From the IMG/VR virus record IMGVR_UViG_3300017917_001675, positions 1 through 49,232 of that record: a stretch of 49,232 bases of DNA, one strand, 5' to 3'. Shown here piece after piece: positions 3,058 to 26,638 of this stretch. The translations under genes were made by a program, and so were the position numbers. The notes beneath the pieces are model-generated. The model was not told where the DNA came from and did no database searches. It was given only the letters and a program-made list of their open reading frames with translations. Numbering within the stretch: position 1 is the stretch's first letter; each line of letters starts with the position of its first letter. The DNA is from a virus.

Positions 3058-3077
3058 TTTTTACCCCGATAATATAA

Positions 3078-3085
3078 TATTTATC
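3078..3085 (-). promoter_or_regulatory. Putative T4-type late promoter (GATAAATA)
   Basis: The minus strand reads GATAAATA immediately after the TAA of the 206-aa gene and about 20 nt before the ATG of the 401-aa fibre gene. It fits NATAAATA, the form reported for late promoters of T4-like cyanophages (TATAAATA in T4 itself). A gp55-type sigma factor is encoded in this window. Confidence 0.5.
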
Positions 3086-3706
3086 TTAAATTGTCACTAA
3101 GTTAGTTAGAGCTTGAATTCTAACTGTATAATCTATTTGTATTTGCCTATTCAAACTTTTCTGAACAGGATGGAAAATTACATGAGTTAGTAACTTTGTA
3201 AGTGTTTGTCCGAACTCATCAGTACCATAATTTGCTAATAATCCTAATTCATCAAATACAAAGCTGCTGTCAGTTTGAGTACTGTTATCAAATGCTGCCT
3301 GTCCTGCAGGTTCACCGTAATCTAACAAACATTGTACTAAAATGTCTGTATAAACCTTACCCACAGTATGCAAAACAGTCATTTTGTTACGTGTAGGATC
3401 TAGGTTAAAAACGCTAGTATCGTCAACAATTTTAGCGTAGGTTTGATTGTATAGGGCAGCATTTTGTCCAGTTACGTTGGGCGGCAAGTATGTAATAACA
3501 CCAGTCTGGTCTACACTTGCGCCACCGTTTCCAAAAGCCATTTCATAGATTTCACCATATCCACGACTGCTTAATGTGTTAGCTATCGCTTCTGACATAT
3601 TTTCATAATTAATGGCATTCTTTTTATCCACGAAAACTTCCCCATTATTGGGGTCGTAGATTTTTAAAAAACCTTCAATTTTGTAGGTAATTGTAATTCC
3701 GGACAT
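3086..3706 (-). CDS. Tail or baseplate structural protein (206 aa), unrecognised family
   Basis: This 206-aa protein starts MSGITITYKIEGFLKIYDPNNG and contains the motif DPNNGEVFVDKKNAINY near residue 20, followed by predominantly helical segments (MSEAIANTLSSRGYGEIYEMAFGNG). The motif DPN-x-x-EVFV is shared with the tiny protein encoded just upstream. Its place between the giant structural gene and fibre genes suggests a virion component or a fibre connector. Its ATG shares one base with the upstream TAA (TAATG), which is a coupling arrangement. I do not recognise the family, so the function is inferred only from position. Confidence 0.6.
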   Translation of the reverse strand: MSGITITYKIEGFLKIYDPNNGEVFVDKKNAINYENMSEAIANTLSSRGYGEIYEMAFGNGGASVDQTGVITYLPPNVTGQNAALYNQTYAKIVDDTSVFNLDPTRNKMTVLHTVGKVYTDILVQCLLDYGEPAGQAAFDNSTQTDSSFVFDELGLLANYGTDEFGQTLTKLLTHVIFHPVQKSLNRQIQIDYTVRIQALTNLVTI

Positions 3707-3858
3707 TAGTTATCGCCTCGTATTTGTACAAATACTTCTTTAGTATTTGGATCTGAAATACGTAAATGTGATGAAAAATAAAATCCCCCCAATTCATTTA
3801 CTTTGGGTTCAGGTTTTTCTAACTTTTTTTCCTCTTTATTTTCTGTATTTTCAGTCAT
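3706..3858 (-). CDS. Small protein with DPNxxEVFV motif (50 aa)
   Basis: Hand translation from ATG 3858-3856 gives 50 residues ending ...EVFVQIRGDN and then TAA. The first ~20 residues are Lys/Glu-rich and likely disordered. The second half is a beta-like stretch (GGFYFSSHLRISDPNTKEVF). It matches the start of the following 206-aa protein at DPN(T/N)xxEVFV. The gene is tightly packed: its TAA shares a base with the next ATG, and a GATAAATA element lies just upstream. The shared motif and tight coupling argue that it is real despite its size. No function is known to me. Confidence 0.6.
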   Translation of the reverse strand: MTENTENKEEKKLEKPEPKVNELGGFYFSSHLRISDPNTKEVFVQIRGDN

Positions 3859-3872: not shown

Positions 3873-6800
3873 TTAGTATATATCCTGGTTTAGGAATATT
3901 GCACTGTCAGTTTGACTAATTTGCAATGGATCCCCTTCTGTCGTGTTATAGATGTTAGAATTCCATGTATTGTTATATTCTTCAGGATTTAATAAGTTTT
4001 CTGTTAAAATACTATAAACTGTTGAATATGCCGATATAAATGTTCTTACCCCTGTACCGTTTACACCCCTACTTAGATCAGATATAGAATTTGTAGCAAA
4101 GTCTACGGATCCGAAACGAATTTGTTCTCCGTTTACTAATATAGTATTACCTTCAACTGATGTAATTTCTAATATATCACCTGCAGTAACTCCACTTGTA
4201 ATATTTACAACTGGGGCTGTTTCAAATATACCTAAACTATATTGATTTGTATTAAGCATAGTTGAAGTGGTTTGATTATAAACAGTTGCTTGTATCAAAG
4301 TATTTTTGTCAACGGTTAAGCCTACTGTTATGACACCATCTACAGCAGCAGGTGCAGTGACAGTTTGGTTAACTGAATTCGTAATTCTTGTAACATCATA
4401 AACAGAAATTGAATCGCTTGTAAAAGATACCTCTTCTGTCAGCCAAGTTCTAGCCCATGTGTTTTCTCTATAAACGACTTGAACGTTATTTTTATTCACA
4501 ATCTGTAGATATGTTTCTTCATCAGGTGTTGCTGAGAAAATCATACTAGTAATAATTATCTCATCTCCTGTCATGATAGGAGTTAAAATAGAAAGATAAT
4601 TGTTAGCATTTAATTTCATACTTGATGACGGAACTCTGTATCCATTTATTGTTACCCATAGTCTATCTGTGTCATCTTGTTCCCATTGAGTAACATTCAT
4701 TGTTCCAGATCCATTAGATAATACGAATTCATCGCCATACCGTGTACTAGAAATTGTAAATGTGTTAGGTGTAATAACATCTATCTCTTTTACATAATAT
4801 ACAGTGTCAGCAATAATATTTCCAAATGTTGTTCCGGTAAATATTACTGGAGTACCTATTACCAATCCTTCTGTACTTACCACTGTAATCAAATTATTAG
4901 TTGAAGAAGTGGCTGTTACTGTAGTTAAAGCAATAATATATGCACTATTATTCCAAATATATCCGCCTGATATATACGCAGAACACGTTAATAACGGATC
5001 ATTAGTTGCAGTCAATGAAGGTAAGTATGCAGACGTATATAGGTCTATTAGTGTATCTGATATTACATGCACATAATATGTATTATTGTTGAGTTGCACT
5101 GAACCCAAAACATCATCAATTCTTATTATATCATTGGTTGTAAATGTATGTGATGAAGATGTTTGAACTCTAATTGCAGGTTGACCACCAACAGTTGCTA
5201 TCATTAATGGACTACTTGCAGTACCTGGATCAAACGCCGGGCCACCTAATGTTTGAGATATTGTAAAATCTGTAGAATTTATAATATTAAGAATAAAATA
5301 CACAGTGCCATCGACTTGAATATTTCCCATTGGTGTTACAGAACTATTCTTGAATATAATAGTTTGTCCTACTACAAAGTTTGATGTAGAATCACAGGTT
5401 ATAACATTACCAGTAGAAGTTACACTAGTAACAGTTGTAGTTGCTAATGGTAAACTAATAGTATTATATACATAGGAAATTGCATAAACCTCTTGTGATG
5501 AACTTGCCGTAATAACTTGTGTGTTAAAATATTGTCTATCAGTCAGATTATAAGAAGTCACCGCAACATTTTGTCCAGCACTTGTAACGACCCCTGGATT
5601 AAATGTTATAGTTGATAAATTATAATTAATATTATAGTTACTAGGTGCTATTCGTAGTCCATCTAACTCTACCACTGCATTATCAGGGTTACTTCCACCT
5701 ACATAATTTTCTAGATCATACGGACCATCTAACGAAACATCTGTTGTAATAAGTTGAGTTTCTGGAAGTGTGTAACCATATTGTTCCGGTGTTGTTTCTC
5801 CGAAAACTGTATAGCTAATGTAGTCTGTAGCTTGATTGTAACTATCAGCAAAAATTAATTTTGCAGTTATTCCGTTTGCAGATAATCCATAACTAACATC
5901 ATGTGTAATAGCTGTACAGCTACCGGATGCGTCTGTTAATACTAAAGGATTGCCCGGATTTAACGGATCCTCTATTGTAAATTCATTAGTATCAATTACT
6001 TGTAATATGTTATATTTTACAAAGGAATCTATAACAGTACCAAAAATAGTAGAACCAAACGTTATTGTATCTCCTGGATATCCAGTAAGTAAGTTTTGTC
6101 CCACCATACCAGATGTTGTTTGGCAAACAACAGTATTAGTAGCACTTCTAGTTTCTGTAATAGTATAATTAAAGCCCATTGTCAATCTATTACCATTAGC
6201 CATTATATAGGGGTCAGTCCATATGGCACCTACTGAAGGTATTACATCTACTGTCATATTACCAGTAGCAGTAGATAGACTATAAATTGGTCCTGCTATA
6301 CCATTGTTAATTGTTGAACTTACAGATATCGTTTTACTCTTGTAGCCAACAGACTTAACATAATAAATGGTATCAGCAACTAATCCCCCAAACACAGTTC
6401 CTTGAAATTTTATTGCAGCATTTAAAGTGAACACTGTTACATCATAGCATTCAATCTCATTTGTTAAAGAATCTGTTGAAATGGCATTTGTGAACACATA
6501 TTCAGTTCCTGGTCTTACCACCCCTGATCCAAGATAACTTGGTTTAGAATAATTACAATTTAACTCTATTTCATTAAAACCAGTTGTTTGGTTTGTAAGT
6601 ATTGGATTAAGATTAGTGTTAGATTTGACCAATTCATTTCCGTTTCCAACTGCATATACATCAATACGTATTGTATCTTGTAAATTATAAATTCCTGGAT
6701 TGTTTAAGGTTATTGTTTGAGAGATCCAATCTATAGCATAATCATATGATGACCCTTCATATATTGAAGTGCTTAATCCAGTTGTACTATCAATAATAAA

Positions 6801-9800
6801 AACACTTAATTCTGCAGGTATTTGTACTGCTTCAAAGAAACTAAAGGTGTCATTACCTAACATAGGTATTTCTACACTTACAACTTTATACCCAACATGA
6901 CCATATTCTACAGCTTCCCAAGTTGTACCTGGACGTGTATTAACAAGCATTGTAAGGTTATCAGTTACTACTCCGGGTACTAATTCTTCAGGACCATAGC
7001 CCGACAAGAAAGGTCCACCTTCAACATTATAAAACGTTGGATCAGTTTCAAAGATTGATATTGACTCCCAAGTATCGCAATTATCTATACTTGTCAAAAT
7101 AGTATTATTATCTCCGACAACTATAAATTTATTATCTATATCGTCATATGTGATGCCATTTAAGTTATTTGTAGTATTTGATGTCTTACTAGTCCACGTG
7201 GATCCATCTGATGAAATAAGTATTTTTCCTGAATTACCAACTACCACAAAAAGACCATCTGCATATATTACGTCATTAAGGTCTTCCACTGTTCCTGAAG
7301 TTTGTGCAGCATAACTAAATCCATTAATACTTGTATATATTATACCATCCTGTCCTACAACAACAATTAAATCATTACCTGAAGTTACACCATATAATGC
7401 CTTATTTGTAAAATAACTCGTAACATTAGTCCATGTATCTCCGTTATCTATACTTTGTAAAATCAAATTAACATCAGTTACAGTTAGTCCTGATAATATT
7501 TGACCTTTTCCTACAGCAATCAATCCTATAAAGTTTGTGATAGAAACATAAGATACTCCATATAAAACATTAGTTAAACCATTTGTGAAGGCATATTTTT
7601 CTTGCCATAAAAACGGATTAGTACTTTTAACAATATTTTCACCAACTGCGATATAGGCATTATTTGTATATGTCACACTATTTAAAAGGTTAGACTCTAC
7701 TAATAATGATGAAAAGTCAAAAGTTAGTAAGTCATATGGTGTACCATCATATGGTGTAAATCTTCCTGTAGTGGTCCAAAATACACCATCTTGACTGATA
7801 AACATCGGATTAACATTATTGTTTGCTGTAATAACATATATGCCATTTGCATAAACAATATCAGTAAAGTTTGCAGGACTATTGGTAACAACATTCAAGT
7901 TCCATGAAACTCCATCAACACTTATAATTGCTTCTGAGGCCTTAGGAGTATTACTAGCAGTAACAAATTTGTTTCCATCCCACGCAACTGCAACTGAATC
8001 TATATCTATTGGGTAAAATGGTTGATCATTTAAAATTGTATCTAATGGAAATTCTTCGTCTGGTGCAAATGCATTACCAAAATATACTCCATTTGGGTAT
8101 GTTATGCCAGATACTAATTGTGTTAAATCATTTCCTGGCATGTTAATATAATCATTCCATGCCAATGTATTAGATTTTTCTGGTTTATAATAACCAACAA
8201 TTCTATCTAATGCATTTAACCTTCTATTACTACTTAACAATTCTTCCCATTTACCTAGAACGAATTCAAAATCATTATTACTTACAATACATTGATAAAC
8301 TCTATTATTGTATTTTACAATACTTTGATTAAAGTAGAATGGTTCAGGTAAGAATATGTAATCTCCTGATTTAGCCATATTAAATGATAATCCAGATGTT
8401 GTAGCATTTAGAGCAAAAACACTACCACCAATTGTTGCACTTATCTGTAATGTTGAACCAACAATATTAATAATATAATATGTATTACCTAATGTCATTC
8501 CACCAATAACGTCTGTACTTCCATTTGTAAACACAACTGGATCATTAACACTAAATTGACTAATATCAGAAACTGTTAATCTATTTGTACCTAAATTAAC
8601 CGCTGTAACAGTTGTTGATCTTATACCCTCATAATTAAAATCACTGTAAGATACTGGTACCTGCATTAACGGATCACTATATACCTCAAGTTGATTTACA
8701 TTTATAACTTTTAGATAATATTTTGCAGTAACTTCGTTTGGAGTACCTTCTAAAATAGCCGAAGTTATTGCTCCGTCCCCGTCAATACTGTTAACTGTTA
8801 ATACTAGGTCATTTTGAGGCGAAGTTCCACCTATTGCAGTTCCTAATATTTTAATTTGATTTGTTATGGCATATCCAGCGCCTGCTGTAGTTATGATGGC
8901 TCTATAACCACCTAAAATATAACTGATATCAAATACAGCAGTTGTAACTATATATTGATTTAATGCTACTAAACCAGCTGCATCAGCCAATGCAAAAGTT
9001 GAACCTCCTTTGGTGGTGCTTACTGTTAAATAAGCAGAACCAGTCAATATCATAGTTCCATTATCATTTGTTAAAGTTAATGTAGAACCTGTTAATGTTT
9101 CTTTAATTGTAAAATGAGTACTATCAACAATAGAGTCAACAAAATATTCTTGGTCAAGATTTATTCCACCCAAATCTACTCCGGTAAACACAATTGGCAT
9201 ATCTACACAAAGATAATCGGTGGTATTACATGTAAGTTTGTTACCAGTTGAACTTGTATTAGTTACGGTCACAGTTGTTATACCATTACTAATCACATAA
9301 TATGGGGTACTAGTAACAAGATTACCTATATTAGAATCTACAGTAAATGCTAAGTTATTATAAAAATAACTCAAACTATATGGCACGAATTTTAAAATAA
9401 TACGATTACTAGCAGAAATTGTATTAGTAATAGTTCTTTCTATCAAAGTAATATTTGTTCCAGTCTTGTTAGGATACTGTTGACTAGTTGGATACATGGT
9501 AAATTGTTGGCCATTAATTTGACCCGGACTAATTGGTAACCCTATGTTAATAGTCATTGATCCTGTACTGTCGTACAATTTAACAGTGTCTTTTTGATTT
9601 GTACCAATACATGTTCCTGTAGCGTTAGATAATGCAAAAGCAGGACCATTAATAGTTGTAGAAATTTTAAATGTTGTTGGAGAAACTATTTCGCTAATAT
9701 AATAAACAGTTCCATCTACAATATTACCAAAACTACTTACACTAACACTAGATATTATCATATCACTGAATATGATTGGATCGTTTACAGATAAAAATAC

Positions 9801-12800
9801 GGTAGTATCATCACTGTCTAATGTAATAATATTAGTACTTGTTGTAGTTTGTATAACATTTACCGTAACTGGATCATTATTTTTAGACATAGTAAATGTT
9901 TGTTTATCCACTATACTTGTAATGTAGTAATTGGTGTTTTCAACTACACCACCAAATACGTCACTACCAACACATGTACCATTAGCGTCACTCAATTCTA
10001 ACGCAGGCCCATTAATTGTTTCAGATATAATAATTTCATTATTAGATAATATTTGAGTGACATAATAAGTTTGTCCTGCAATAATATTTCCAAAATTAGT
10101 TACTGGTATAAAGTCAATAACCATATCTCTAAAAGTTATTGGGTTACCAACTTGTAGTGAAAGTGCATTTGTGCAAGTTATAATATTAGTTAATGAAGTT
10201 GTAGTTGTAACTCTTATAGTATTACCTGTAAAATAAACTAGTAAACCAGAATAGAACCCAGTCGTACCACCTTGCCCAGTAAGTGTTAGTGGTATTGTTA
10301 AATAGTTTGTGCCACTAGCTGTTGCTGTTACTGAAAGTATTCCTGGATACTGCATAGTTACTACAGCAATATCTCTTGGTTCTCCTACATACATTGTTAA
10401 ACCAGCTACTGGCGCGCTTGCTGTAGTTAATACTACGGGGTTACTATTTTCATCAACCAAACTAAATTGATTTAGACCATTAATGGTTTCAATATAATAA
10501 GTAGTATTAACTGTTAATCCACCAAATGCTGCGCCTGTAAATTTTACAGGCATACCAATATAAAAGCCTGTAGTGGGGCCTAAATATCCCTCTAAAGGAG
10601 TTCCTCCTTCAGATTCAGTAATTGTTACTAAATCTGGATCACCTATAACATTTACTGTACCTGTTACATTTCTAGTTCTTGATGACCACTTAATTTCATA
10701 ATCTTGTGATACAGAAATCATTTCAAACCCTTGACCTTCTGCACTAGCCAAAATATCTTCAATTGGAGGTTGGGTTGATTGTAAAGTTATTGCAGAACTA
10801 GCAATCTTTGTACTATTGCTAAATTTTCCGGCATAGAATGATCCGTAGAAAGTTCCTGGATTCCATTCTGTAACTTGGGAGTTATATGCAATTCTATCAT
10901 ACTTAAGTGTTATTATATTTTCTCGTATAGGATATGAGCTAGAAATGCATGACGCTCTTCCAGTTAATAGTAGCTTATTAGTATTTCCAGATCCTGTAGT
11001 ATAAAGTTTTACTCTATGAGTATCATTAATTGAATCAGCATAATTTGTATATAAACCTATAACAAATGCAGGACTTGTTTCTAAAGCATTTACATAATAA
11101 TATTGATTACTTACTAAACCACCTATTGTGTTATTTGAATCTTGTGCAACATATTTTACAAGATCACCGGTGTTAAAAATAGGCGTTGATATTACCATTG
11201 TACTTGTATAAGTTTTTACATTTTCAGGTAGAACGGTAACAGTAGCTGCAGGTTCTATTACTATTTCAGGTAATACTGTATATCCTGATCCAGGATCTAT
11301 AACATCAATTCTTAAGATTTTATCCAAATACATAACTGCTTGTAATACTGCAGGTCTACGTGGGGCTGGATAAATTGAGGTGTCAATATGAGCAGTAACT
11401 TGAGGGGGATTCGTGTAGCCCCGACCTGATTCTAATAAAACTACTGCAGGTAAGTCAATATAAATTTCTTCTCCGGGCAAGTGAGTGAAAATCGGAGTAC
11501 CATTTACTCCTCTAGTCAACCCACTTAGGGTATTTGTTGCCTTATCGATGGTTGTATATCCTATTAACTCATATCTTCTATTTGTAGGCTCAGAAGTTGT
11601 ATCATTCGGATCATAGATTTTAATCGTGCCATCTATTGGGAATCCCCATGGATTATCAACAATAATATAGTTTGAATTTAATGTAACATATGAGGCAAGC
11701 GTAGTAATTGGATATTCTGGGTGACCAGTTAAACTTAAACCAAAATTTTGATACCATTGATTATATGATGTAGAATTCCATATCTCATTTGTTGGCAAGT
11801 ATTCATATACGGTATCAGGATTTTGATAAACAAGTTGCGGAGTTATAAATTGTTCTGCATCAGTATTATACTTAGCCGGTAAATCAAAATCAGTTAGATC
11901 ACCTGCAAATGTTTCTATGCCTGTATATTTGAAAAGAAAATCTTTAACAACTACGTGATATGGTTTAACTTCATTTATATAACCTGCAAGAAAATCTTGA
12001 TTATCAGTTTGATAAACTTGTATGGGCTTTAATTCTCTTATAGTATGACTTACATCAACTAAAGATGTTTTATTTAACCATGGCAAGTAATTTTGATACT
12101 CAATAGTTTCACTTTGAATATATTCAAACATTAATATTAATGCTTGGTTTCTAAACAAATTATATTCTGTAGGTAGTTGTTCGTTAAGTGCTCTAATAAT
12201 AAATCTAGTTTCTTCACTAGGATATTCATCATATGGTGTTGTATCAAAGAAGTTATCTCCGAATCCATATCTATCAATAGTGTAATCCCAAAGTGATGGT
12301 TTAAATTGTATAGTACCGTTTTGTAAACCTATACGTTCCCATGTACCTAATTCGGTATATACGTACCATTCGTTAAAACCATCAGCGTTAGTTAAAACTT
12401 TACCTACAGTACCAACGGGCACAGTAAGTGTGAGTAAATCAGAATATATTTGTACTTGTACGTTTGATTTAGTACTGTCATTATATCCGGGTGCCCACCA
12501 AGTGATAAATTCCCAATATCTTTGAACATCAAAGAATGGTAAGTTATTAGAAGGGTTTGTGTCACCTTGAACAAATAAGAATAATGGATCTGCTAAATCA
12601 TATGCGGGGAATTCCTTTAATAATAAATTAGCAAATTCTAAGTAATTCTGTAGGGCAGTAAATCTATTATAGAAGAAACTTTGTCTTGGACGAGCAAGTA
12701 CTCCGGTTTGTACTAATTTAGGTAAGTAAGGATCAGGAACTACTGCACCTGCTTCATCAACGCCAGAAAAACTTTCTAGCATTCTATTATATAAACTTTC

Positions 12801-15800
12801 AGGCCTTTTTATATTGTTGATTCCTGGAAGTCCTGGGAGAAAATCATCAGGATAATTAGCACGAATTAAACTGTAAGAATTGTGTATTACATCATCGTTT
12901 ACGCCTGTACCAAATCCTACATGTAAAATTGCAGTATTTTCTGCTACGTACTCTTGAGTGTTGTATAAAGCAAATACATTCGGCTGTAATGGTGCAAAAT
13001 ATGCTATCCCCGAAGCCTGTGGCGTTAAAATATAATTTTGTATTACTACATCAGTTAACGTTTTTCCTCTATTGTTATAAATTATATTACTATTTTTTAC
13101 CCAGAAGAAGTAATTTGGTATTGATTGTCCATTAGAAGCAGGAGTATAAGATATAGAATATTGATATAAATCATATGGTATTCCCGGTCCTTGATATCTT
13201 ATAGGAGGAACAGTACTATAAATCCATGTATAAACTTCAACTAAGCTGCCCGGAAATACCTTACCCCAATATTTGCTATTATAAACTACATCATTTTGAT
13301 GATAGTTCATGAATTTCATGCTTGAGGTATTTAACCATATAGATCCAATCTGTGCAGCACCCCAAACCATGCTTTGTTGAACTGTTGTGGCTGGACTATT
13401 ATAGCTAGCCGGATCAGCGTTTGTAATATAATCTATATTTTGAACTACAACACCTAATAATTTTCCTTGTAGTGGATCAAAGTAATCTAAATTTGCAAGT
13501 GTTTGAAAATTAAGACCATTATAAATTTGTATGTTTTCAATTCTTGAAACATCAACTACAGGGCAACTATGTCTAAAGACTGACCAATCTTGTTCGCCGG
13601 TCTCATTAGTATAAACTATAACTTGTCCACGAACAGAATCAGGCAGATAATTTGGTGCACCTATTAAAACTATGCCATTATTAAATTCTAATGCGCTACC
13701 ATATAAAGGCTGCACTCCGTTTTGCTGACTTCTAGAATTTATACTTTGTGCATAAACAAAAACACCTAAATTATCTAAACTTTCATTATAATTTTCAAGA
13801 TAATCATACATGTAGACTGCGCCTGTATTATTAAACCAGTCTAAGAATTGTGTTGTATTATTATCAAATAAGGTGTCATTATTATAATTACTATCATCAA
13901 CAAAATCAAATGTAGTAAGTGCGTATCTTGTACCTACAGGGGCGCTTACAACAAAAGAATTAAACTCATTAAATTTAATTTTGGATCCAAATTGTGAAGC
14001 ACCTTGTGCATGTGGACATTTAATTGTTTGTGTTAATGTATATAAATTAAAACCAAGTTGGTTAAACATTGATCCATTGTTAACTGAAATGTTTAATTTA
14101 TCTGTAGCAGAAGCAATATTTACATCTATGAGTGATATTGTAAGGATCCCATTACTTGCAACTGCTTGTACATTCGTTACTTTTGCTGAATTTATAGCGT
14201 TTGCAATAGTATCAGCACCGCCTGAAGGTAAGTATACACTATATCCATTTATAAAAATATATTCGGGATTAAGTAGATTACATGTTTGTGTTCCGGTTAT
14301 ATATCCAAATTTACTTCCTGAATTTGTATAACGATATACTGCACCCTCTCCTAAAGTTTGACTTATTGCTAAAGGTGCACCTATTAAAACTTCAGTGGCA
14401 TAGGTATTGTTAGCTATACCTTTACCAAATTGTTCACCAATTTCATAAACTACTGGATTGACAGTTTGAGCTAAAATAAATTTATTAGTGTCAATGTTTA
14501 TTATATCGCCGGCTGTCAATGTTATCAGTAACCATAACTGGGTTCCTACTATGGCATATTCATTATCTGATAATAATTTTCCGTTTTGATTTACATAAAC
14601 AGGTTGTGATTGTACATGTCCATACATTGTTCCTGATGCAGTAGTTAATGTAACATCAGGTCCTACGGTAACAAATGTTAAGTTAGGAGTAGAATTATTT
14701 AATTGTACTAAAGTCCCATTTGTGTCTTTTATTGTAATAGCAGGATCACCGTTTATATCAGTTGTGATTGTTCTAATAAAATACTTGGTATTTTCTTGAA
14801 TATTTGAATTGTCTGTATTACCAAAAAATTGAATTGGTCTATCTACAACTAGATTATCTGTACTTTCTAACGTGATAGTATCCGCAGCAGCTAAAGTTAT
14901 AATTACTTTACCTGTATATTTGTTTGAAGCAATTGTAAAATTAGAAGTATTGACAATATCACTAATATAATAAACTAAATTGTTAGATACTCCACCAAAT
15001 GCTGTCCCCGTAAAAGTGATTGGATCAAATAAGTTTACTCCACTAGTAGTACTAGATCCGGCTGTTGTAATTCTATTTGTTGTTACTGTAGTATTACTTA
15101 AAGTTAAAGTTATTGTTGTAGGAGCATTTACTAAATTAAATTTCTGTGGCTGATCAACATTTGAATATTGTGCTTCAAAAGTTTGATATAGTCTATCAAA
15201 TATATAGGCTTCTCCGGAATCATTAATATTATTATAATTTTTATTAGGTGCACCCACAATTAGTGTCGTGCCATAATAATCTGTAGATAAACTATATCCA
15301 AAATTATCTCCAGATACTGAAGATGGTATTGAAATTATAGTTGATAATGTGTATTTGTTAGTAACATAGTTTTTGTTATAAACATAAACTTGATTATTAA
15401 CATACGCACTTACATATATCCAATTTGTGTCTCCGGAAAATGCTATTGCAGAACCAAAATTAGTTACACCAGAAGGTGCATAAATTGAATTTTGTATTAG
15501 GCTTAATTTATTTTCTAACGTTGTTTTAATTAATTCATAAACGTTTATATAAGGTGTTGTGTACGTAGGAGCTGCAATTAACACTATATTTTGACTATGT
15601 TCAATAGTAGCGCCGAATGATGCATCTTCAGTGTACGTGGAATATAAGAAATATTCATTTGAATTTGGATCTATAATATATCTATAAACTTCACCTAAAT
15701 CTGCATCACTAATTAAATAACCTAGGTCAGTAGATGCTGCTACCGCACTTCCGTAACTTGAACTACTTGTTTTAGTTAATTCCTCAGTATATTGATAATT

Positions 15801-18800
15801 TAAAGACTTTTGTAGTGTAGCCCAATCGCCATTAGTAAAATTGTCTACCCAAACTTTATTTTTAACAAATTCAAAATTTATTAAGGGTAAGTTATTAATG
15901 TCACTGGGTTTCTCAATTCTTTGATTTTGTAGTTTTAAACCAACACCGCTTCCTGTAATTGTTTGTAAAGATGGAGGAATAGTTACTGGGATGGTAATTG
16001 TATAATTGTTTACTATTTCGCTAACGATATAATAACCATTTACTGAAACATCAAAATTTATTATTATTACTGGATCATTTTTTTGTAAATTATGAGGAGT
16101 TTCAAAAATAATATTTACAGTACCATTTAAATTATTTGTTGATCCTACAATAGGAGCAATAGCTAAAGGAGCAAATATTTGCCAAGTACCTTGAAACTCT
16201 GCTACCCAGATATATTCACCTACATAAATTCTGGTTAAAGGTGTTTTTGATACTGGTAGACCTGAATAGTAATAGCTGTATGTTTTTACATCATTGATAT
16301 TTACGTATCCTGCTGAAGGTAAAAGTCTGTCCGGAGTATCAACGGGTAATGTAGGTAGCACATCAGGAGATGTAATAGGTTTACTATAATTAACCAATTG
16401 ATATAATGGTACTTCTTGTTGCACCCCTTCAGTACTTGTGCCATCCATAAGACCGACAATGCTAGGATTACCGGTTAACAAATTACTATTTAAAGCAACT
16501 TCAAAAAAGTTATTGTTTAGAACTCCACCATATTCACCTGTTTTGATAGCCCAGTTTTCAAACAAGTCATATTGTATGCCACCCTGAGGTAAATTTGCAC
16601 CCTTAAATGCGTTAATTGAATTTCTTGTACCCTTATTTTTAATTAAGTTTTTATAAACATTAATTTGTGTAATGTCAGTTAAATCAACTAATGCAAGATA
16701 ATCTCTAGGTCTATAACCAATTAAACTAAAACTTAATAAATCTGCATCTTGTTCTAAGTTTGCTTGATTAACATCATAATACAATGTACTTTCATAACTT
16801 CTTGTACTTGTATTAGGTAATAAACCTTTTTGTATCTCGTTGTAGTCTGTTTCTTTCCACAAATTTTCTTGGAATACAACAGCAGGTTGAATTATTTTTA
16901 GTGCTGTCCAATATTTGTTTTTATATTTTACAATTGAACCCTTTGTATATTTTGTATCTTTATTCCATGCTAATATATTATCTTGATTTAAAATAAAGCC
17001 CTGTGCTGTAATTGTGCCGTTCCATTCAGCAGTCTTTGTACCACGTACATATACTCTATTTTGACGTAAACCGGTTACTAAATTGTAAATTACATCATCA
17101 AATAATGTTAAGTTGTTAAAAACTATACCATGTTCAAAATTACTAATATTAAATTGACCATATGCTATAGTATCACCCTGATTTAAAGTTTTGACAATAA
17201 AAGAGGTACCATCACGTTGTATATCTAAATCAGATAATAATATAGGATAATTATTTTGATTTAATATAAAATTTTGTTGTTGTAACGTTAAGGGCTGTAC
17301 TATACATCCATCTTTATTAATACTTAAAATATTTGCTGATGGATTTAAATTTACAATACTTCCAGGTTCCCAGCCTGATTGTGCCCAGTATAAAAATTCA
17401 GCAGACATTTGCCTCCATGAAACCTGTATACCAGCTTCTATAGTTTCAAATTGGGCTCCTTGTTGTGCTAAGTATCTACCATAACTTTCTAAAAATTGAG
17501 CTACTTCTTGTACTGTATAAAATTCGTTGCCGTAAGGGATATATTCAACTGTAGAATAATAATTCGTAGCTATTTGAACTGTAATTTCTTCTACTTTTAA
17601 AGTCGTAAAACTTCCATTGTTTATAGGAGGTAATATTTTAAAGTAAGTATTGGTCTGACTATTACCATATACTTTATATGTACCTTCTTTAGTAAGTTGA
17701 ACAATTACTCCACTATAAACAATTCTATCAAATGGTTCATTATCATATAGTAATACTGAATAACTTTCATCAGGAATTAATAATGAACTATTTGTGCTAT
17801 TTACCGAACCTTTTTCTACATAAAATTGTAGATTGGTTTTATCACTAAATCCTGCTAAACGATAAACTAATCTAACATCTAAATTGAATAATAAAGATTT
17901 GATATTATTTGTTGCGTCTATACCGATTTGTTTTTCGTAGTCAACAATCCAATTTATGTAACTTGTTTTAGCCGTGCCATTACCATAAATTTCTACGTTA
18001 TCAATTACTAAATGACTTATATCATTAACTAGGTACTGATTGAAATATGGATTATATCTATAATTGTCAAGGTCCACACCTAAATTGAAAAAATTAGCAG
18101 GTTTTGTTAGTGCTAGTATTCGCATTAAATCAAATGGCCATGTGCTGCTACGACGATAGCTAAATTCTGCAGGGCCTACGTCTCCTACTCGCCAATCACG
18201 TTTAAAACTTCTACCGTCATAATCACCCATGATACTAATAAATGGGCTTACAAGATTACCTGCACTATCAACAGGCAATACTTGTAGTAATTCTGGACGA
18301 ACAAAATTAGGTCTGACTATACCCTCTCCGGTTATTGGATCAATTACTCCATAATCTTTACCTGCTGCTAAGTCACTCCATAGTAATGTGTTATCACTTG
18401 TATAGGGTGCAGGACCATATCTTGTTTCCCAATAATCAGGTTGATCCGTATAACCTAACATTTGCCATGGCATTGTGTCAGGGTTGGCAGTATCATAGAA
18501 ATATTGATAAATTCCTCTCCAATAACCCTGCGATATAACTTGACGATTTATTTTATTACCTGATTGATTATAGTTATAGGTATATTCATTATTAGGGTTA
18601 TAATATTGAGTTTTATAATCTATTCTATTTTGTCCGACCCAATTTAAAAATCCTTGAGTATAAATTTCTAGTATGTCATCATAAGAATATTCAGTATCTC
18701 TAAAAAATCCAGGTAAAACATCAAATTGATTAACTGGATAGGTTGTACCTACTAATTTTAAATTATTATAAATTCTTTGCTCAAATTCAAGTAAAACTTG

Positions 18801-21800
18801 GTCTCTGAAATCATCAAGTCTACCTGTTTCGGGATCATAATTTCCATATAACTTTGTATAAGATCCATCATGTCCAAGAATAAAGTAAGATGGAACATTA
18901 TATCCTGTATCTAGTACAACACTTGGAATTGTTGAAGGATAAAATCCTAACTTAGTTGGTGTATTAGGTACATAACTTCCATATGTTTGATTATATTCAT
19001 TAATAGTTATTATATCACCATCCTGCAAGTCAAGGGTTACAGTAAGTGATTTTGCATCAGAACTTACGATATAATCTTTATTAATAATTAATTGAAATGT
19101 TGTTGGATTATTATTTATTAACCTAGTTAGATAAACTAAAACTCCGTTGTAATTTGCCTTAGTAAAATCATAAATTGCACTTAAAGGATATCTTGTAACA
19201 TCCATTGCATTGGCAAATGTATATGTATTACTAGCATATGGTGCTTTACTGGGTAACATATCACTCCAGAAGAATGATCCTGTATCCCCCTTTGTAGATG
19301 TAATTTGATCTAATGCATCATCTAAAATCTGAGCAGGAGTTTGCTGATATTCATAAGCAGTATTAGAAACAGTATAAACTAATAAATTTTTATAATTAAT
19401 ATACTCGCGGCTATTATAAAGAAGTGCGTTAAACAGATTGTGGTCTTGTTTTCTTAAGAAGGTGCTTGGTAAAACTAAGCTAGCACTATTTTGTATAATA
19501 GCAGTACCATATGGAATTATATTTCCTAAATCTCTAAAATTGTTACTTCCATAAACTTGACCTGTAGTTAAAGGACAATTATAAAAAATGCTTGTATAAT
19601 GATTTCTAATGTCCCCTACATTCAAAACTTGTACATCAGCATTAAATGGATTATTACTTAAATTAATTGGTATAGTATAATAAGCATTTTGACTTACTGA
19701 ATCAGATAACAATAGTATTTCAACAATTGTGTCTTGTGATGTATCTGGAACTGTAAAGTTTACAATTGTTTGAGTATCTGTAACTGTAAATGTATAACTT
19801 GAAGATGATTGTCTTACATTATTAACAAATAATTGAATAGTTGGCCATGGACTTGATTCAATTATTGGTACATCGCAGACAAATAGATTAGTTGGATTAG
19901 TTGCAATATAGTTAAATTGAAATAATTGATATTGTACGCTAGGTCCAACTGCTGTTTGCCAACCAATTACAGGACTGTCATTAGTAATCTCATTATATCT
20001 GTGAACATATCCAGTATTAACTCTTTGATTTTTTGGATCGCCTGCTTTAACATAATCAAAAGTTTCAATATTTATTGATATGTCAAAACTAATATCACCT
20101 GTGTTGCTTACTCCACTGTATCTAATTGGGAACCCTAATATAACATCATTTGTGCCAAAACCTATACCATACGCAAATAATTTTGAACCAGTAAAACTTG
20201 AACTATTGTATCTTTCTTTGTTTCCAAAACTTATTCCATCAGCATCAAAAATATCAAACTTTGGTGGTTGATTAACCGTAAGTTTTTCTTGTGCCATTGT
20301 CCATTGAATGTCATATTGATTTGTTACTATGTTATAGTATGGACCGTAATAAAAATCTTTACCTGCATTTTGAAAACCTTTGTTAACTGCAACCTGAGTA
20401 TCGTAGTCACAATTACCATCTTCTACTTCTGTTAGAGTAATTATAGGTGTAGAGCTTGGAGTAATTTGACTAAATTGAATTTCATAAATTTTATTACGAG
20501 TATCTAAATTAGTATCATTTGCAAAAACAATTCTAGCTCCAGGATAAACACTAAACTCATCTAATTGTAAGTTACAACCAACAATAGATGCTACTGTAGT
20601 AGAACTAAATGTATATGCACCAACCCAACTTACTGTTAATATATATTCTGTAGAAGTTTTGATAACATCAGTAATTTGTGTATTATTTGGTAGTAGGTTT
20701 GTGCTGTCAGTAATATATTGACCCACAACAAATGAACCAGTAACATCTTCAAGATCAACTGTAATTGTTGTAGTTGTTACAGCAGGATTAGAATTGCCCA
20801 CAATTGACGCGGTATAATTTGTCCAAACTTGCGTATCAGGATAATAAGATGTTTGACCTGCTACTTGAGTAAATGCATCAGTTGTTCTAAAGTCCATAAA
20901 ATCAACTGCTGGTTTTCCATAAGTACCCGAGTTAAAAAGTCTTAGGTTTGGATAAAACTCAATTATAGGTCTTTTAGCTTTATTTTCTTGTGTAGCATAA
21001 AGTGATGTTAATTCCGGTTTATTATTGTAAGTTGCTGTGGCATTAATAACATCAATGTGGAACCATCTGTTGCTACGAGTCCAAGCATTTTTATCTAAAC
21101 TATTTCTAGAAATAGTAATATAATCTTTTAAAACAGGAACATTACTACTACCGTCCCAACTACCCACATCATATGGCAGTATGTCATACGGTGTATATAA
21201 GACTTCTGTAAAAATTTCAGGCGCTATTAACGTGCTAGTTGGTATCAATTCAATAGCTGTGCCTACACCTTCTACATAGTATTCACCGTCTTTGTAGCTT
21301 GTAGGATAAATGTCTCCTGAAAATGTAACTTTTAAGCCATTTGTAAACACAATACCATTTGAACTTGTATAGTATTTTTTACCTAATATTTCTGAGTTTA
21401 CATTAATTCTATTAGTATTATTATTTTCAATTAATTTAATTTGTCCAACTTTATTAGGATAAGTTCCGTCTTGATAATACAGAATATCTTTAGGTGCGCT
21501 TATATAAGGAACAAGACTAATAGTTCCTAATGTATTTCTATAAAAAGTTCTTCCAACCCATTCAGTTCCGTATTTAGGTATTATTTTTTCGTTTGTAGGG
21601 ATTGAACCTACGGGTATAAGTTTTAATATAGGATAAGATGAGGTGTCGCTTGGTGATCCTGTGTATACTATTTGATAAAACGTAGCTGATACTTGAGTAT
21701 AATATCCACCTTCATAATTTGTGTCATCTAAACTTGTTCCCGGATATGTATAGGGATTTCCACCGTCTTGGTCATATAATGTAGTATCATAAAATGGACC

Positions 21801-22709
21801 TACAAAACCTTGCTCGTCGGGGATTCCTGTATTGTAAAACATTACAGTTAATCCTTCTAACGCACTTACTCCATCTATTGACTGCAAATCTTGCAGGCTT
21901 GCACCGTTAACCTGATCAAATGGAAGTGTACTTACAACATCTATTGAATTATTACCCGGGAAATCATATTCATCTTGTGCATTTTTTTCAGGTACATTAA
22001 AAGTAATTACACCATTTGATGCGCCATTATTAATAACTCCAAATACTTCACGTGTTTGTATATTGGGTTGATTTGGATCAAAACCTGTTATCCCAGGTGC
22101 ACCTTGTATCCAAAATTGTGTAGCCTGATTTACAGTAAATGTATAGCTTCCACCTCTTAATAAAGTAATTACAGGATTAGTGGTCGAACCTTGTCCTTCT
22201 AATCCAATACTATAGCCATTAGCTACACTTTCTACTATATAATTTCCTGTACTATATATTGTATCAGTTGAAATCTGTACTGCTTCTGGACCCTCTGGTA
22301 ACCAATAATATTGATTAAAATTAATAATTTTATCTAAATTAGTAAAACTATCCCAAGAATAGAATTGACTTTCAAACAATCGGTTATTATTGTCAGTAAT
22401 ACTACCTTCAACTTTTAATGCATCAAGGATACCAGGATAACTGATAAAATCTTGAGCTACTCCGGTATCATTTTTTAGAAATACAACACCAGGATCTAAC
22501 TGGTAATCGGTTCTTATTTTTGTTGGTTCTATGACATATTTGTTTTTTGCATTAACACCATAACCAAATTTACTACCTATATAACCCTGAATACGCATTG
22601 TATTAGGTTGATCAACTACTTGATCTAAAGTTGCACTTAAAAATTGTGCATTAGTTTGAGTCTGAAAAACTTCTGGTAAAAAATTTAGTGTTCTAATTCT
22701 TGTTGCCAT
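3873..22709 (-). CDS. Giant modular virion protein (6278 aa), tail/baseplate-associated
   Basis: This is one uninterrupted frame of 6278 codons, roughly 0.7 MDa. The N-terminus (MATRIRTLNFLPEVFQTQTN) resembles N-termini of large structural proteins in T4-like aquatic phages. It starts 24 bp after gp6, the slot of T4 gp7 and later wedge genes. By eye the order is: head and Tyr/Asn-rich beta regions (1-1900); a CBM5/12-like segment near 1920-1955; seven FG-GAP-like blades at about 2317-3046 interrupted by two insertions; further structural domains with GxGYTxxP and RGVNGT motifs (about 3700-3850); a ~75-residue module repeated many times (about 4020-4780 and 5400-6010); a second CBM-like segment near 4785-4825; and seven Asp-box/BNR-like blades at about 4903-5220. 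No protease, glycosidase or lysozyme active site was recognised. A virion protein joining baseplate to receptor binding is inferred. Confidence 0.85.
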   Translation of the reverse strand: MATRIRTLNFLPEVFQTQTNAQFLSATLDQVVDQPNTMRIQGYIGSKFGYGVNAKNKYVIEPTKIRTDYQLDPGVVFLKNDTGVAQDFISYPGILDALKVEGSITDNNNRLFESQFYSWDSFTNLDKIINFNQYYWLPEGPEAVQISTDTIYSTGNYIVESVANGYSIGLEGQGSTTNPVITLLRGGSYTFTVNQATQFWIQGAPGITGFDPNQPNIQTREVFGVINNGASNGVITFNVPEKNAQDEYDFPGNNSIDVVSTLPFDQVNGASLQDLQSIDGVSALEGLTVMFYNTGIPDEQGFVGPFYDTTLYDQDGGNPYTYPGTSLDDTNYEGGYYTQVSATFYQIVYTGSPSDTSSYPILKLIPVGSIPTNEKIIPKYGTEWVGRTFYRNTLGTISLVPYISAPKDILYYQDGTYPNKVGQIKLIENNNTNRINVNSEILGKKYYTSSNGIVFTNGLKVTFSGDIYPTSYKDGEYYVEGVGTAIELIPTSTLIAPEIFTEVLYTPYDILPYDVGSWDGSSNVPVLKDYITISRNSLDKNAWTRSNRWFHIDVINATATYNNKPELTSLYATQENKAKRPIIEFYPNLRLFNSGTYGKPAVDFMDFRTTDAFTQVAGQTSYYPDTQVWTNYTASIVGNSNPAVTTTTITVDLEDVTGSFVVGQYITDSTNLLPNNTQITDVIKTSTEYILTVSWVGAYTFSSTTVASIVGCNLQLDEFSVYPGARIVFANDTNLDTRNKIYEIQFSQITPSSTPIITLTEVEDGNCDYDTQVAVNKGFQNAGKDFYYGPYYNIVTNQYDIQWTMAQEKLTVNQPPKFDIFDADGISFGNKERYNSSSFTGSKLFAYGIGFGTNDVILGFPIRYSGVSNTGDISFDISINIETFDYVKAGDPKNQRVNTGYVHRYNEITNDSPVIGWQTAVGPSVQYQLFQFNYIATNPTNLFVCDVPIIESSPWPTIQLFVNNVRQSSSSYTFTVTDTQTIVNFTVPDTSQDTIVEILLLSDSVSQNAYYTIPINLSNNPFNADVQVLNVGDIRNHYTSIFYNCPLTTGQVYGSNNFRDLGNIIPYGTAIIQNSASLVLPSTFLRKQDHNLFNALLYNSREYINYKNLLVYTVSNTAYEYQQTPAQILDDALDQITSTKGDTGSFFWSDMLPSKAPYASNTYTFANAMDVTRYPLSAIYDFTKANYNGVLVYLTRLINNNPTTFQLIINKDYIVSSDAKSLTVTLDLQDGDIITINEYNQTYGSYVPNTPTKLGFYPSTIPSVVLDTGYNVPSYFILGHDGSYTKLYGNYDPETGRLDDFRDQVLLEFEQRIYNNLKLVGTTYPVNQFDVLPGFFRDTEYSYDDILEIYTQGFLNWVGQNRIDYKTQYYNPNNEYTYNYNQSGNKINRQVISQGYWRGIYQYFYDTANPDTMPWQMLGYTDQPDYWETRYGPAPYTSDNTLLWSDLAAGKDYGVIDPITGEGIVRPNFVRPELLQVLPVDSAGNLVSPFISIMGDYDGRSFKRDWRVGDVGPAEFSYRRSSTWPFDLMRILALTKPANFFNLGVDLDNYRYNPYFNQYLVNDISHLVIDNVEIYGNGTAKTSYINWIVDYEKQIGIDATNNIKSLLFNLDVRLVYRLAGFSDKTNLQFYVEKGSVNSTNSSLLIPDESYSVLLYDNEPFDRIVYSGVIVQLTKEGTYKVYGNSQTNTYFKILPPINNGSFTTLKVEEITVQIATNYYSTVEYIPYGNEFYTVQEVAQFLESYGRYLAQQGAQFETIEAGIQVSWRQMSAEFLYWAQSGWEPGSIVNLNPSANILSINKDGCIVQPLTLQQQNFILNQNNYPILLSDLDIQRDGTSFIVKTLNQGDTIAYGQFNISNFEHGIVFNNLTLFDDVIYNLVTGLRQNRVYVRGTKTAEWNGTITAQGFILNQDNILAWNKDTKYTKGSIVKYKNKYWTALKIIQPAVVFQENLWKETDYNEIQKGLLPNTSTRSYESTLYYDVNQANLEQDADLLSFSLIGYRPRDYLALVDLTDITQINVYKNLIKNKGTRNSINAFKGANLPQGGIQYDLFENWAIKTGEYGGVLNNNFFEVALNSNLLTGNPSIVGLMDGTSTEGVQQEVPLYQLVNYSKPITSPDVLPTLPVDTPDRLLPSAGYVNINDVKTYSYYYSGLPVSKTPLTRIYVGEYIWVAEFQGTWQIFAPLAIAPIVGSTNNLNGTVNIIFETPHNLQKNDPVIIINFDVSVNGYYIVSEIVNNYTITIPVTIPPSLQTITGSGVGLKLQNQRIEKPSDINNLPLINFEFVKNKVWVDNFTNGDWATLQKSLNYQYTEELTKTSSSSYGSAVAASTDLGYLISDADLGEVYRYIIDPNSNEYFLYSTYTEDASFGATIEHSQNIVLIAAPTYTTPYINVYELIKTTLENKLSLIQNSIYAPSGVTNFGSAIAFSGDTNWIYVSAYVNNQVYVYNKNYVTNKYTLSTIISIPSSVSGDNFGYSLSTDYYGTTLIVGAPNKNYNNINDSGEAYIFDRLYQTFEAQYSNVDQPQKFNLVNAPTTITLTLSNTTVTTNRITTAGSSTTSGVNLFDPITFTGTAFGGVSNNLVYYISDIVNTSNFTIASNKYTGKVIITLAAADTITLESTDNLVVDRPIQFFGNTDNSNIQENTKYFIRTITTDINGDPAITIKDTNGTLVQLNNSTPNLTFVTVGPDVTLTTASGTMYGHVQSQPVYVNQNGKLLSDNEYAIVGTQLWLLITLTAGDIINIDTNKFILAQTVNPVVYEIGEQFGKGIANNTYATEVLIGAPLAISQTLGEGAVYRYTNSGSKFGYITGTQTCNLLNPEYIFINGYSVYLPSGGADTIANAINSAKVTNVQAVASNGILTISLIDVNIASATDKLNISVNNGSMFNQLGFNLYTLTQTIKCPHAQGASQFGSKIKFNEFNSFVVSAPVGTRYALTTFDFVDDSNYNNDTLFDNNTTQFLDWFNNTGAVYMYDYLENYNESLDNLGVFVYAQSINSRSQQNGVQPLYGSALEFNNGIVLIGAPNYLPDSVRGQVIVYTNETGEQDWSVFRHSCPVVDVSRIENIQIYNGLNFQTLANLDYFDPLQGKLLGVVVQNIDYITNADPASYNSPATTVQQSMVWGAAQIGSIWLNTSSMKFMNYHQNDVVYNSKYWGKVFPGSLVEVYTWIYSTVPPIRYQGPGIPYDLYQYSISYTPASNGQSIPNYFFWVKNSNIIYNNRGKTLTDVVIQNYILTPQASGIAYFAPLQPNVFALYNTQEYVAENTAILHVGFGTGVNDDVIHNSYSLIRANYPDDFLPGLPGINNIKRPESLYNRMLESFSGVDEAGAVVPDPYLPKLVQTGVLARPRQSFFYNRFTALQNYLEFANLLLKEFPAYDLADPLFLFVQGDTNPSNNLPFFDVQRYWEFITWWAPGYNDSTKSNVQVQIYSDLLTLTVPVGTVGKVLTNADGFNEWYVYTELGTWERIGLQNGTIQFKPSLWDYTIDRYGFGDNFFDTTPYDEYPSEETRFIIRALNEQLPTEYNLFRNQALILMFEYIQSETIEYQNYLPWLNKTSLVDVSHTIRELKPIQVYQTDNQDFLAGYINEVKPYHVVVKDFLFKYTGIETFAGDLTDFDLPAKYNTDAEQFITPQLVYQNPDTVYEYLPTNEIWNSTSYNQWYQNFGLSLTGHPEYPITTLASYVTLNSNYIIVDNPWGFPIDGTIKIYDPNDTTSEPTNRRYELIGYTTIDKATNTLSGLTRGVNGTPIFTHLPGEEIYIDLPAVVLLESGRGYTNPPQVTAHIDTSIYPAPRRPAVLQAVMYLDKILRIDVIDPGSGYTVLPEIVIEPAATVTVLPENVKTYTSTMVISTPIFNTGDLVKYVAQDSNNTIGGLVSNQYYYVNALETSPAFVIGLYTNYADSINDTHRVKLYTTGSGNTNKLLLTGRASCISSSYPIRENIITLKYDRIAYNSQVTEWNPGTFYGSFYAGKFSNSTKIASSAITLQSTQPPIEDILASAEGQGFEMISVSQDYEIKWSSRTRNVTGTVNVIGDPDLVTITESEGGTPLEGYLGPTTGFYIGMPVKFTGAAFGGLTVNTTYYIETINGLNQFSLVDENSNPVVLTTASAPVAGLTMYVGEPRDIAVVTMQYPGILSVTATASGTNYLTIPLTLTGQGGTTGFYSGLLVYFTGNTIRVTTTTSLTNIITCTNALSLQVGNPITFRDMVIDFIPVTNFGNIIAGQTYYVTQILSNNEIIISETINGPALELSDANGTCVGSDVFGGVVENTNYYITSIVDKQTFTMSKNNDPVTVNVIQTTTSTNIITLDSDDTTVFLSVNDPIIFSDMIISSVSVSSFGNIVDGTVYYISEIVSPTTFKISTTINGPAFALSNATGTCIGTNQKDTVKLYDSTGSMTINIGLPISPGQINGQQFTMYPTSQQYPNKTGTNITLIERTITNTISASNRIILKFVPYSLSYFYNNLAFTVDSNIGNLVTSTPYYVISNGITTVTVTNTSSTGNKLTCNTTDYLCVDMPIVFTGVDLGGINLDQEYFVDSIVDSTHFTIKETLTGSTLTLTNDNGTMILTGSAYLTVSTTKGGSTFALADAAGLVALNQYIVTTAVFDISYILGGYRAIITTAGAGYAITNQIKILGTAIGGTSPQNDLVLTVNSIDGDGAITSAILEGTPNEVTAKYYLKVINVNQLEVYSDPLMQVPVSYSDFNYEGIRSTTVTAVNLGTNRLTVSDISQFSVNDPVVFTNGSTDVIGGMTLGNTYYIINIVGSTLQISATIGGSVFALNATTSGLSFNMAKSGDYIFLPEPFYFNQSIVKYNNRVYQCIVSNNDFEFVLGKWEELLSSNRRLNALDRIVGYYKPEKSNTLAWNDYINMPGNDLTQLVSGITYPNGVYFGNAFAPDEEFPLDTILNDQPFYPIDIDSVAVAWDGNKFVTASNTPKASEAIISVDGVSWNLNVVTNSPANFTDIVYANGIYVITANNNVNPMFISQDGVFWTTTGRFTPYDGTPYDLLTFDFSSLLVESNLLNSVTYTNNAYIAVGENIVKSTNPFLWQEKYAFTNGLTNVLYGVSYVSITNFIGLIAVGKGQILSGLTVTDVNLILQSIDNGDTWTNVTSYFTNKALYGVTSGNDLIVVVGQDGIIYTSINGFSYAAQTSGTVEDLNDVIYADGLFVVVGNSGKILISSDGSTWTSKTSNTTNNLNGITYDDIDNKFIVVGDNNTILTSIDNCDTWESISIFETDPTFYNVEGGPFLSGYGPEELVPGVVTDNLTMLVNTRPGTTWEAVEYGHVGYKVVSVEIPMLGNDTFSFFEAVQIPAELSVFIIDSTTGLSTSIYEGSSYDYAIDWISQTITLNNPGIYNLQDTIRIDVYAVGNGNELVKSNTNLNPILTNQTTGFNEIELNCNYSKPSYLGSGVVRPGTEYVFTNAISTDSLTNEIECYDVTVFTLNAAIKFQGTVFGGLVADTIYYVKSVGYKSKTISVSSTINNGIAGPIYSLSTATGNMTVDVIPSVGAIWTDPYIMANGNRLTMGFNYTITETRSATNTVVCQTTSGMVGQNLLTGYPGDTITFGSTIFGTVIDSFVKYNILQVIDTNEFTIEDPLNPGNPLVLTDASGSCTAITHDVSYGLSANGITAKLIFADSYNQATDYISYTVFGETTPEQYGYTLPETQLITTDVSLDGPYDLENYVGGSNPDNAVVELDGLRIAPSNYNINYNLSTITFNPGVVTSAGQNVAVTSYNLTDRQYFNTQVITASSSQEVYAISYVYNTISLPLATTTVTSVTSTGNVITCDSTSNFVVGQTIIFKNSSVTPMGNIQVDGTVYFILNIINSTDFTISQTLGGPAFDPGTASSPLMIATVGGQPAIRVQTSSSHTFTTNDIIRIDDVLGSVQLNNNTYYVHVISDTLIDLYTSAYLPSLTATNDPLLTCSAYISGGYIWNNSAYIIALTTVTATSSTNNLITVVSTEGLVIGTPVIFTGTTFGNIIADTVYYVKEIDVITPNTFTISSTRYGDEFVLSNGSGTMNVTQWEQDDTDRLWVTINGYRVPSSSMKLNANNYLSILTPIMTGDEIIITSMIFSATPDEETYLQIVNKNNVQVVYRENTWARTWLTEEVSFTSDSISVYDVTRITNSVNQTVTAPAAVDGVITVGLTVDKNTLIQATVYNQTTSTMLNTNQYSLGIFETAPVVNITSGVTAGDILEITSVEGNTILVNGEQIRFGSVDFATNSISDLSRGVNGTGVRTFISAYSTVYSILTENLLNPEEYNNTWNSNIYNTTEGDPLQISQTDSAIFLNQDIY
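4690..6480 (-). repeat. Protein-level module repeats, block 1 (four copies)
   Basis: Within the giant gene, four degenerate copies of a ~75-residue module lie at about 4690-4920, 5205-5430, 5895-6155 and 6240-6480. Each runs as a variable strand with N-x-I-x-C/V, then a P-I-x-F step, FG-x-x-x-x-x-T-x-YY-x, a short F-x-I-S strand and a closing L-x-x-x-x-G-x-M/C. They are diverged at DNA level, so this is not a recent tandem array. Confidence 0.65.
7045..8005 (-). other. Asp-box/BNR-like seven-bladed propeller region inside the giant gene
   Basis: Seven consecutive units follow the pattern L-x-x-(V/I)-x-Y-x-x-x-x-F/Y-(V/I)-V-(V/A)-G-x-x-G-x-I-x-x-S-x-D-G-x-x-W. The clearest are SQDGVFW, SIDNGDTW, SSDGSTW and SIDNCDTW, all Asp-box-like. 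The unit length is about 40 residues, as in sialidase or YCF48-type propellers. No sialidase catalytic residues were identified, so a binding or structural propeller is more likely. Confidence 0.65.
8380..10640 (-). repeat. Protein-level module repeats, block 2 (about five copies)
   Basis: Further copies of the same ~75-residue beta module lie at about 8380-8615, 9045-9280, 9590-9860, 9890-10215 and 10395-10640. The copies at 9590-9860 and 9890-10215 are the most alike: both carry FGNI, V-Y-Y or T-Y-Y-V, I-N-G-P-A and a GTC-(I/V)-G ending. This suggests a duplication more recent than the others. Confidence 0.65.
13560..15760 (-). other. FG-GAP-like seven-bladed propeller region inside the giant gene
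   Basis: Seven segments with the FG-GAP pattern are visible in order: YGSAVAAS, FGATIEHS, FGSAIAFS, FGYSLSTD...LIVGAPNKN, FGKGIANN...VLIGAPLAI, FGSKIKFN...FVVSAPVGT and YGSALEFN...VLIGAPNYL. Each of the best four is followed by a G-x-(A/V)-Y-x-(Y/F) strand. About 240 residues, including two copies of the repeated module (near 14650-15100), separate blades four and five. About 90 residues separate blades five and six. Confidence 0.6.
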
Positions 22710-22733
22710 CTTATTACTCTGTCAATATATTAC

Positions 22734-26126: not shown

Positions 26127-26143
26127 AAGTGTTCTCTTTTATA

Positions 26144-26151
26144 TATTTATC
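26144..26151 (-). promoter_or_regulatory. Putative T4-type late promoter (GATAAATA) before gp6
   Basis: The minus strand reads TGATAAATATATAAA in the 50-bp gap between gp25 and gp6. GATAAATA fits NATAAATA and sits about 17 nt from the gp6 ATG. This is the best-placed example in the window for a late promoter of gp6 and the giant gene. Confidence 0.55.
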
Positions 26152-26176
26152 ATACAGGAAAACACCAAAATTTAGG

Positions 26177-26626: not shown

Positions 26627-26630
26627 AATG

Positions 26631-26638
26631 TATTTATT
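26631..26638 (-). promoter_or_regulatory. NATAAATA element overlapping the gp5-like stop codon
   Basis: The minus strand reads TAAATAAATACATT before the gp25 ATG; AATAAATA starts within the upstream TAA. It is only 4 nt from the ATG, so if it is a late promoter the transcript would have essentially no leader for gp25. It could equally be chance in an AT-rich junction. Confidence 0.3.

Follow-up and report, generated by a model that had tools for sequence, protein, structure and literature searches.

The presence of one very long open frame directly after gene 6 of a T4-like phage raises the question of whether it is a real gene and, if so, whether its product corresponds to gp7, to a fusion of gp8-gp12 or to something else. 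The frame lies in a 49-kb linear IMG/VR fragment (49,232 nucleotides; hereafter the window). The original prediction of a single ~18.8 kb stop-free frame next to gp6 was borne out in length and position; the strand, which had been left unstated, is the minus strand. Read from 22709 to 3873, the frame contains 6278 codons and is free of stops and of N. Its calculated product has a mass of 694 kDa, in agreement with the expected ~0.7 MDa chain, and a pI of 4.3. The corresponding frame of the plus strand has 481 stops over the same interval, and the longest stop-free runs in the five other frames are just 52–147 codons. The chance of a stop-free run this long at the same base composition is ~10^-228.

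A frameshift or assembly error had been a concern from the outset. The source is one metagenomic contig, and one relative (L030/L115; contig L205, around 3288) does carry a broken giant frame, in which ~59 codons have been lost and the reading frame changes. This break is probably an assembly fault, and no break of this type was found in the giant frame of the window. Mis-assembly, or an artificial fusion of several genes, is strongly contradicted by three observations. Intact homologous frames of 5.9–6.6 kaa are present in independent IMG/VR metagenome contigs, GC3 is even along the whole frame (0.15–0.20) and, in two close pairs of relatives, every 500-codon stretch along the gene has a dN/dS of 0.05–0.22. 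An excess of third-position changes is also seen between the giant gene of the window and its nearest relative. Because independent contigs keep frames of this size and purifying selection spans the whole frame in relatives, the giant gene is no assembly artefact, and the probability that we assign to such an error is negligible. Positions 3873–22709 are one real, intact, large gene.

The giant lies in a module of baseplate and tail genes on the minus strand. In the direction of transcription, the module comprises a gp53-like wedge protein (32856–33170; PHROG_7145, hhalign probability of 85% to T4 gp53), a 1048-aa virion protein (29709–32855), a gp5-like hub protein with an OB domain (26638–29703; profile match) and a gp25-like wedge protein (26177–26626; PHROG_43 and PHROG_261). 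These are followed by a gp6-like wedge protein of 1130 aa (22734–26126), which matches PHROG_10646 (E 1e-255) and PHROG_219, "baseplate wedge subunit" (E 3e-19), and aligns colinearly with T4 gp6 by hhalign (E 0.001). Twenty-four bases separate the stop of the gp6-like gene from the start of the giant. Beyond it are a 50-aa open frame (3706–3858), a 206-aa protein of PHROG_11259 (3086–3706) and a 401-aa tail-fibre-type protein (1852–3057), all on the same strand. The 50-aa frame, with a DPxTxEVxV-like motif, recurs at the same spot in relatives, including PA5oct (gp356) and Atu_ph07 (gp179), and the 206-aa protein lies where PA5oct has gp357, whose annotation records detection by ESI-MS/MS. 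The C terminus of the 401-aa protein shows a weak match (2.6e-5, just under the Pfam cut-off) to Peptidase_G2, an autoproteolytic/intramolecular chaperone domain.

The plus strand encodes a late sigma factor, SbcD, SbcC, RusA, a 1097-aa protein with an endolysin domain (40487–43780), the portal and a prohead protease (46841–47476). The match of the gp5-like hub to the hub-plus-lysozyme family PHROG_13211 is limited to the first part of that family, whose lysozyme part is found on the separate 1097-aa protein; judged from these profile matches, the tail lysozyme seems to have been split off gp5 in this phage. The annotations of CBB, PBECO4 and PA5oct show largely the same gene order as the window, and its source is therefore a T4-like jumbo myovirus.

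The giant itself matches PHROG_10938, a virion structural protein profile of 3324 positions, in three consecutive pieces with E values of 5e-122, 2e-82 and 2e-51, the match extending over its core within the first 3700 residues. BLAST retrieved homologues in 84 cultured phage records, every one at <60% identity, and at least 599 IMG/VR stretches match the N-terminal patterns; closed frames of family members range from 2.6 to 6.6 kaa. All the Rak2/PA5oct/Atu_ph07-type jumbo phages inspected have a PHROG_10938 gene of 3.3–4.5 kaa after gp6 or in its place. The homologue lies directly after gp6 in PA5oct (gp355, 3857 aa), Atu_ph07 (gp180, 4449 aa), Vibrio 2.275.O (3771 aa), PBECO4 (gp538, 3333 aa) and CBB (CBB_236, 3340 aa), and after a long gene at the gp6 position in SCTP-2 (3807 aa). 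Position and family thus support the claim of a giant virion-type gene at the place of T4 gene 7. On these matches, the window giant is assigned to the PHROG_10938 family as a large addition to an already known kind of giant gene.

Virion presence is recorded for two shorter homologues and is predicted for the window giant. For CBB_236, 21 unique peptides covering 7.7% of the protein were detected in virions (PMC5259590); PA5oct gp355 carries an ESI-MS/MS annotation. A search for a published virion location of PHROG_10938-family proteins found none. The peptide coverage published for the homologues would also be compatible with processing of a precursor into several mature virion chains; in T4-like phages, head proteins are cleaved by a prohead protease, and one such protease is encoded in the window. 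The substrates of the T4 prohead protease are, however, head proteins, tail proteins not being cut, and the giant frame yielded no match to an autoproteolytic domain. We regard processing of this kind as highly unlikely.

The protein can be divided into a conserved part and a clade-specific part (all coordinates on the minus strand). The N-terminal region, residues 1–620 (20850–22709; PHROG_10938, E 7e-47), is conserved apart from clade-specific insertions at ~170–440, and is followed by a conserved core at residues 720–2160 (16230–20552). A beta-propeller-like stretch covers residues 2170–2960 (13830–16202), with FG-GAP_2 over 2466–2504 and two embedded beta repeats at 2536–2695. The second conserved core block, residues 2960–3660 (11730–13832), contains a helical segment (3498–3541) and a ~95-residue domain like the head domains of phage tailspikes. 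The core common to the window giant and the cultured phages amounts to ~3.3 kaa; past ~residue 3960 the sequence is clade-specific. This part comprises a first array of ~80-residue FCCH-like beta repeats (residues 3960–4780; 8370–10832), an Asp-box (YCF48/BNR/Vps10-like) beta-propeller region (residues 4880–5240; 6990–8072) and a second array of FCCH-like repeats (residues 5400–6010; 4680–6512). The conserved C-terminal domain (residues 6050–6278; 3876–4562) carries an RGVNGT motif and a GDPLQIS tail.

Structure prediction, which had been proposed as a check, was carried out for two segments. The AlphaFold model of residues 1000–2160 is a confident single unit (pLDDT 83, pTM 0.76), and that of residues 2960–3760 has a pLDDT of 79 and a pTM of 0.44. 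The 1161-residue predicted unit at 1000–2160 (16230–19712) is conserved across jumbo phages. It has no whole-fold match in the PDB, just a CBM5/12-like (chitin-binding) subdomain at ~1914. The second model contains the tailspike-head-like domain; otherwise, its long viral-library matches are to uncharacterised phage proteins and the Atu_ph07 homologue. In the PDB fold search, the matches listed for both models were just these short-domain ones, and a PDB sequence search with the core alignments gave chance-level matches or none.

To what does the additional length correspond? The window giant has 16 copies of the ~80-residue beta repeat, which matches Pfam E1_FCCH weakly, mostly in the two arrays that flank the Asp-box propeller. 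There are 8–16 copies in the long clade and none in any tested homologue of 4450 aa or less. The extra length of the long clade comes largely from these repeats and the beta-propeller. In a tree of the core, all proteins of 5.9–6.6 kaa form one clade (support 1.0), sister to proteins of 4.0 kaa. Since the long proteins are monophyletic and the shorter homologues tested lack the repeats, the extra size was probably acquired once, in one lineage, through multiplication of the repeat.

T4 gp7 (1032 aa) directly follows gp6, the same position as the giant, and identity with gp7 was part of the original prediction. A profile built from eight gp7s and compared by hhalign with every segment of the giant gave probabilities of <1%; the similarity sought was to the helical domain and domains V and VI. 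The Pfam domain Gp7_6th was matched in T4 but neither in the window nor in five large relatives or four cultured phages, and no homology to T4 gp7 was found by BLAST, profile-profile comparison or Pfam. Orthology with T4 gp7 is therefore not supported by sequence. In addition, gp7 does not appear in the 50 top PDB matches listed for the two models, which cover residues 1000–2160 and 2960–3760 of the 6278. As a control, hhalign recovers gp53, and gp6 only weakly; because gp6 itself is barely recovered by the same method, a very remote relationship to gp7 may still exist. For the window giant, "gp7 slot" is a positional label. The 1048-aa protein was also considered as the real gp7 and was rejected, as it has no match to the profile.

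The suggestion that gp8-gp12 functions are combined in the giant chain is not supported. No gp8-gp12 domains were found in it by Pfam or hhalign, tail-fibre-type genes stay separate just downstream, and P-SSM2 and other cyanophages with gp7-slot genes of 3–8 kaa keep separate gp8-type wedge genes. Weak matches to gp9/gp10 N-terminal pieces sit elsewhere in relatives, outside the giant gene: in a 2801-aa frame of one relative (G020, a 263.7-kb contig; 171370–171630) and in frames of 848–1765 aa in others. The gp8 domain (PF09215) is absent from the five large relatives and the four cultured phages. Since the jumbo relatives yielded no homologue of gp8, the giant may have taken over its role.

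Taken together, we think it likely that this single intact gene encodes a very large structural protein of the virion in a jumbo T4-like myovirus of the Rak2/PA5oct/Atu_ph07 type. The protein would consist of a core with repeat arms and is probably built in beside gp6 at the wedge. The most likely form is a scaffold at the wedge periphery with variable arms for surface contact. Its location at the wedge, a role similar to that of gp7, the number of copies and contact with the host are inferred as follows. The ~3.3 kaa shared core would pack against the gp6/gp25/gp53 wedge, with one or a few copies of the giant per wedge. The clade-specific repeat arrays and propellers would project as long arms, making the baseplate wider and either touching the surface of the host or bearing fibres; the size was probably reached by multiplying the ~80-residue repeat within one lineage. 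Contact with surfaces is a typical function of propeller, tailspike-head-like and chitin-binding-like domains. The lack of a sequence match to T4 gp7, and of a fold match in the two models, is a point against this explanation.

The same lack of gp7 homology, together with the long beta-repeat architecture, would fit a virion protein outside the wedge, such as tail whiskers or another peripheral fibre, that is merely encoded after gp6. Indeed, whisker-bearing relatives exist in which no gene has been assigned to the whiskers (PMC5259590). However, the order gp53-gp5-gp25-gp6-giant is conserved, and GAP32 carries a homologue of the giant; the authors of the CBB study reasoned that whisker genes are expected to be absent from GAP32 if that phage has no whiskers (PMC5259590). 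A location outside the wedge is therefore considered unlikely. Also doubtful is an extension of the wedge model in which the two repeat arrays and the propeller are built-in adhesive arms of ~2300 residues on the same chain as the wedge protein, replacing or supplementing the short tail fibres. If so, the extensions would be covalently fixed to the baseplate and their length set by the number of repeats. A structure of the homologue from a cultured phage (PA5oct, CBB or PBECO4) would account for the baseplates of a phage group that is widespread and mostly uncultured.

Three kinds of protein in the slot after gp6 can be compared with the window giant. T4 gp7, which forms a heterotrimer with two copies of gp6 and is present in six copies per baseplate, is six times shorter, with no detectable sequence similarity and no fold similarity in the two partial models. 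The PHROG_10938 giants of PBECO4, CBB, PA5oct and Atu_ph07 occupy the same slot and share the core (residues 1–2170 and 2960–3660) at 23–34% identity; the window giant is 1.4–1.9 times longer than these proteins and has the FCCH-like repeat arrays, which these known proteins lack. The family forms a graded series of ~2.6–6.6 kaa, along which enlargement through multiplied repeats can be traced.

The third kind is found in cultured cyanophages (Kyanoviridae), T4-like phages that, like the window, have a single huge gene directly after gp6. The original comparison was made with T4 alone and missed these public giants: P-SSM2 gp7 (5195 aa) and the proteins of ACG-2014f (4225 aa), S-CAM9 (3884 aa) and Syn1 (3274 aa). 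A claim of record size for the window giant is rejected, since CPXG_00128 of P-RSM6, in the same slot and with its frame checked, has 8573 aa. In S-SSM7 (L211), two genes for ~3000-aa proteins (7562–16585 and 17651–26656) are both labelled gp7, and between them lies a gene with the annotation baseplate wedge tail fiber connector. Divergence of gp7 among T4-like phages has been noted earlier (PMC3037559). The N-terminal part of the cyanophage giants matches T4 gp7 around domain V (profile probability of 84%), a match that the window giant lacks; P-SSM2 gp7 matches PHROG_2885, PHROG_4406 and PHROG_701, none of which is matched by the window giant in the PHROG profile search. In contrast, residues 5083–5215 of its propeller are 35–46% identical to segments of the gp7-slot proteins of S-SSM7 and S-CAM9, and a module near 3720–3790 also matches cyanophage giants (hhalign probability of 74%). 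Giants in the slot after gp6 are thus found, with no detectable common core, in at least two T4-like lineages, the jumbo phages and the cyanophages, and the identity in the propeller indicates that accessory modules are common to both.
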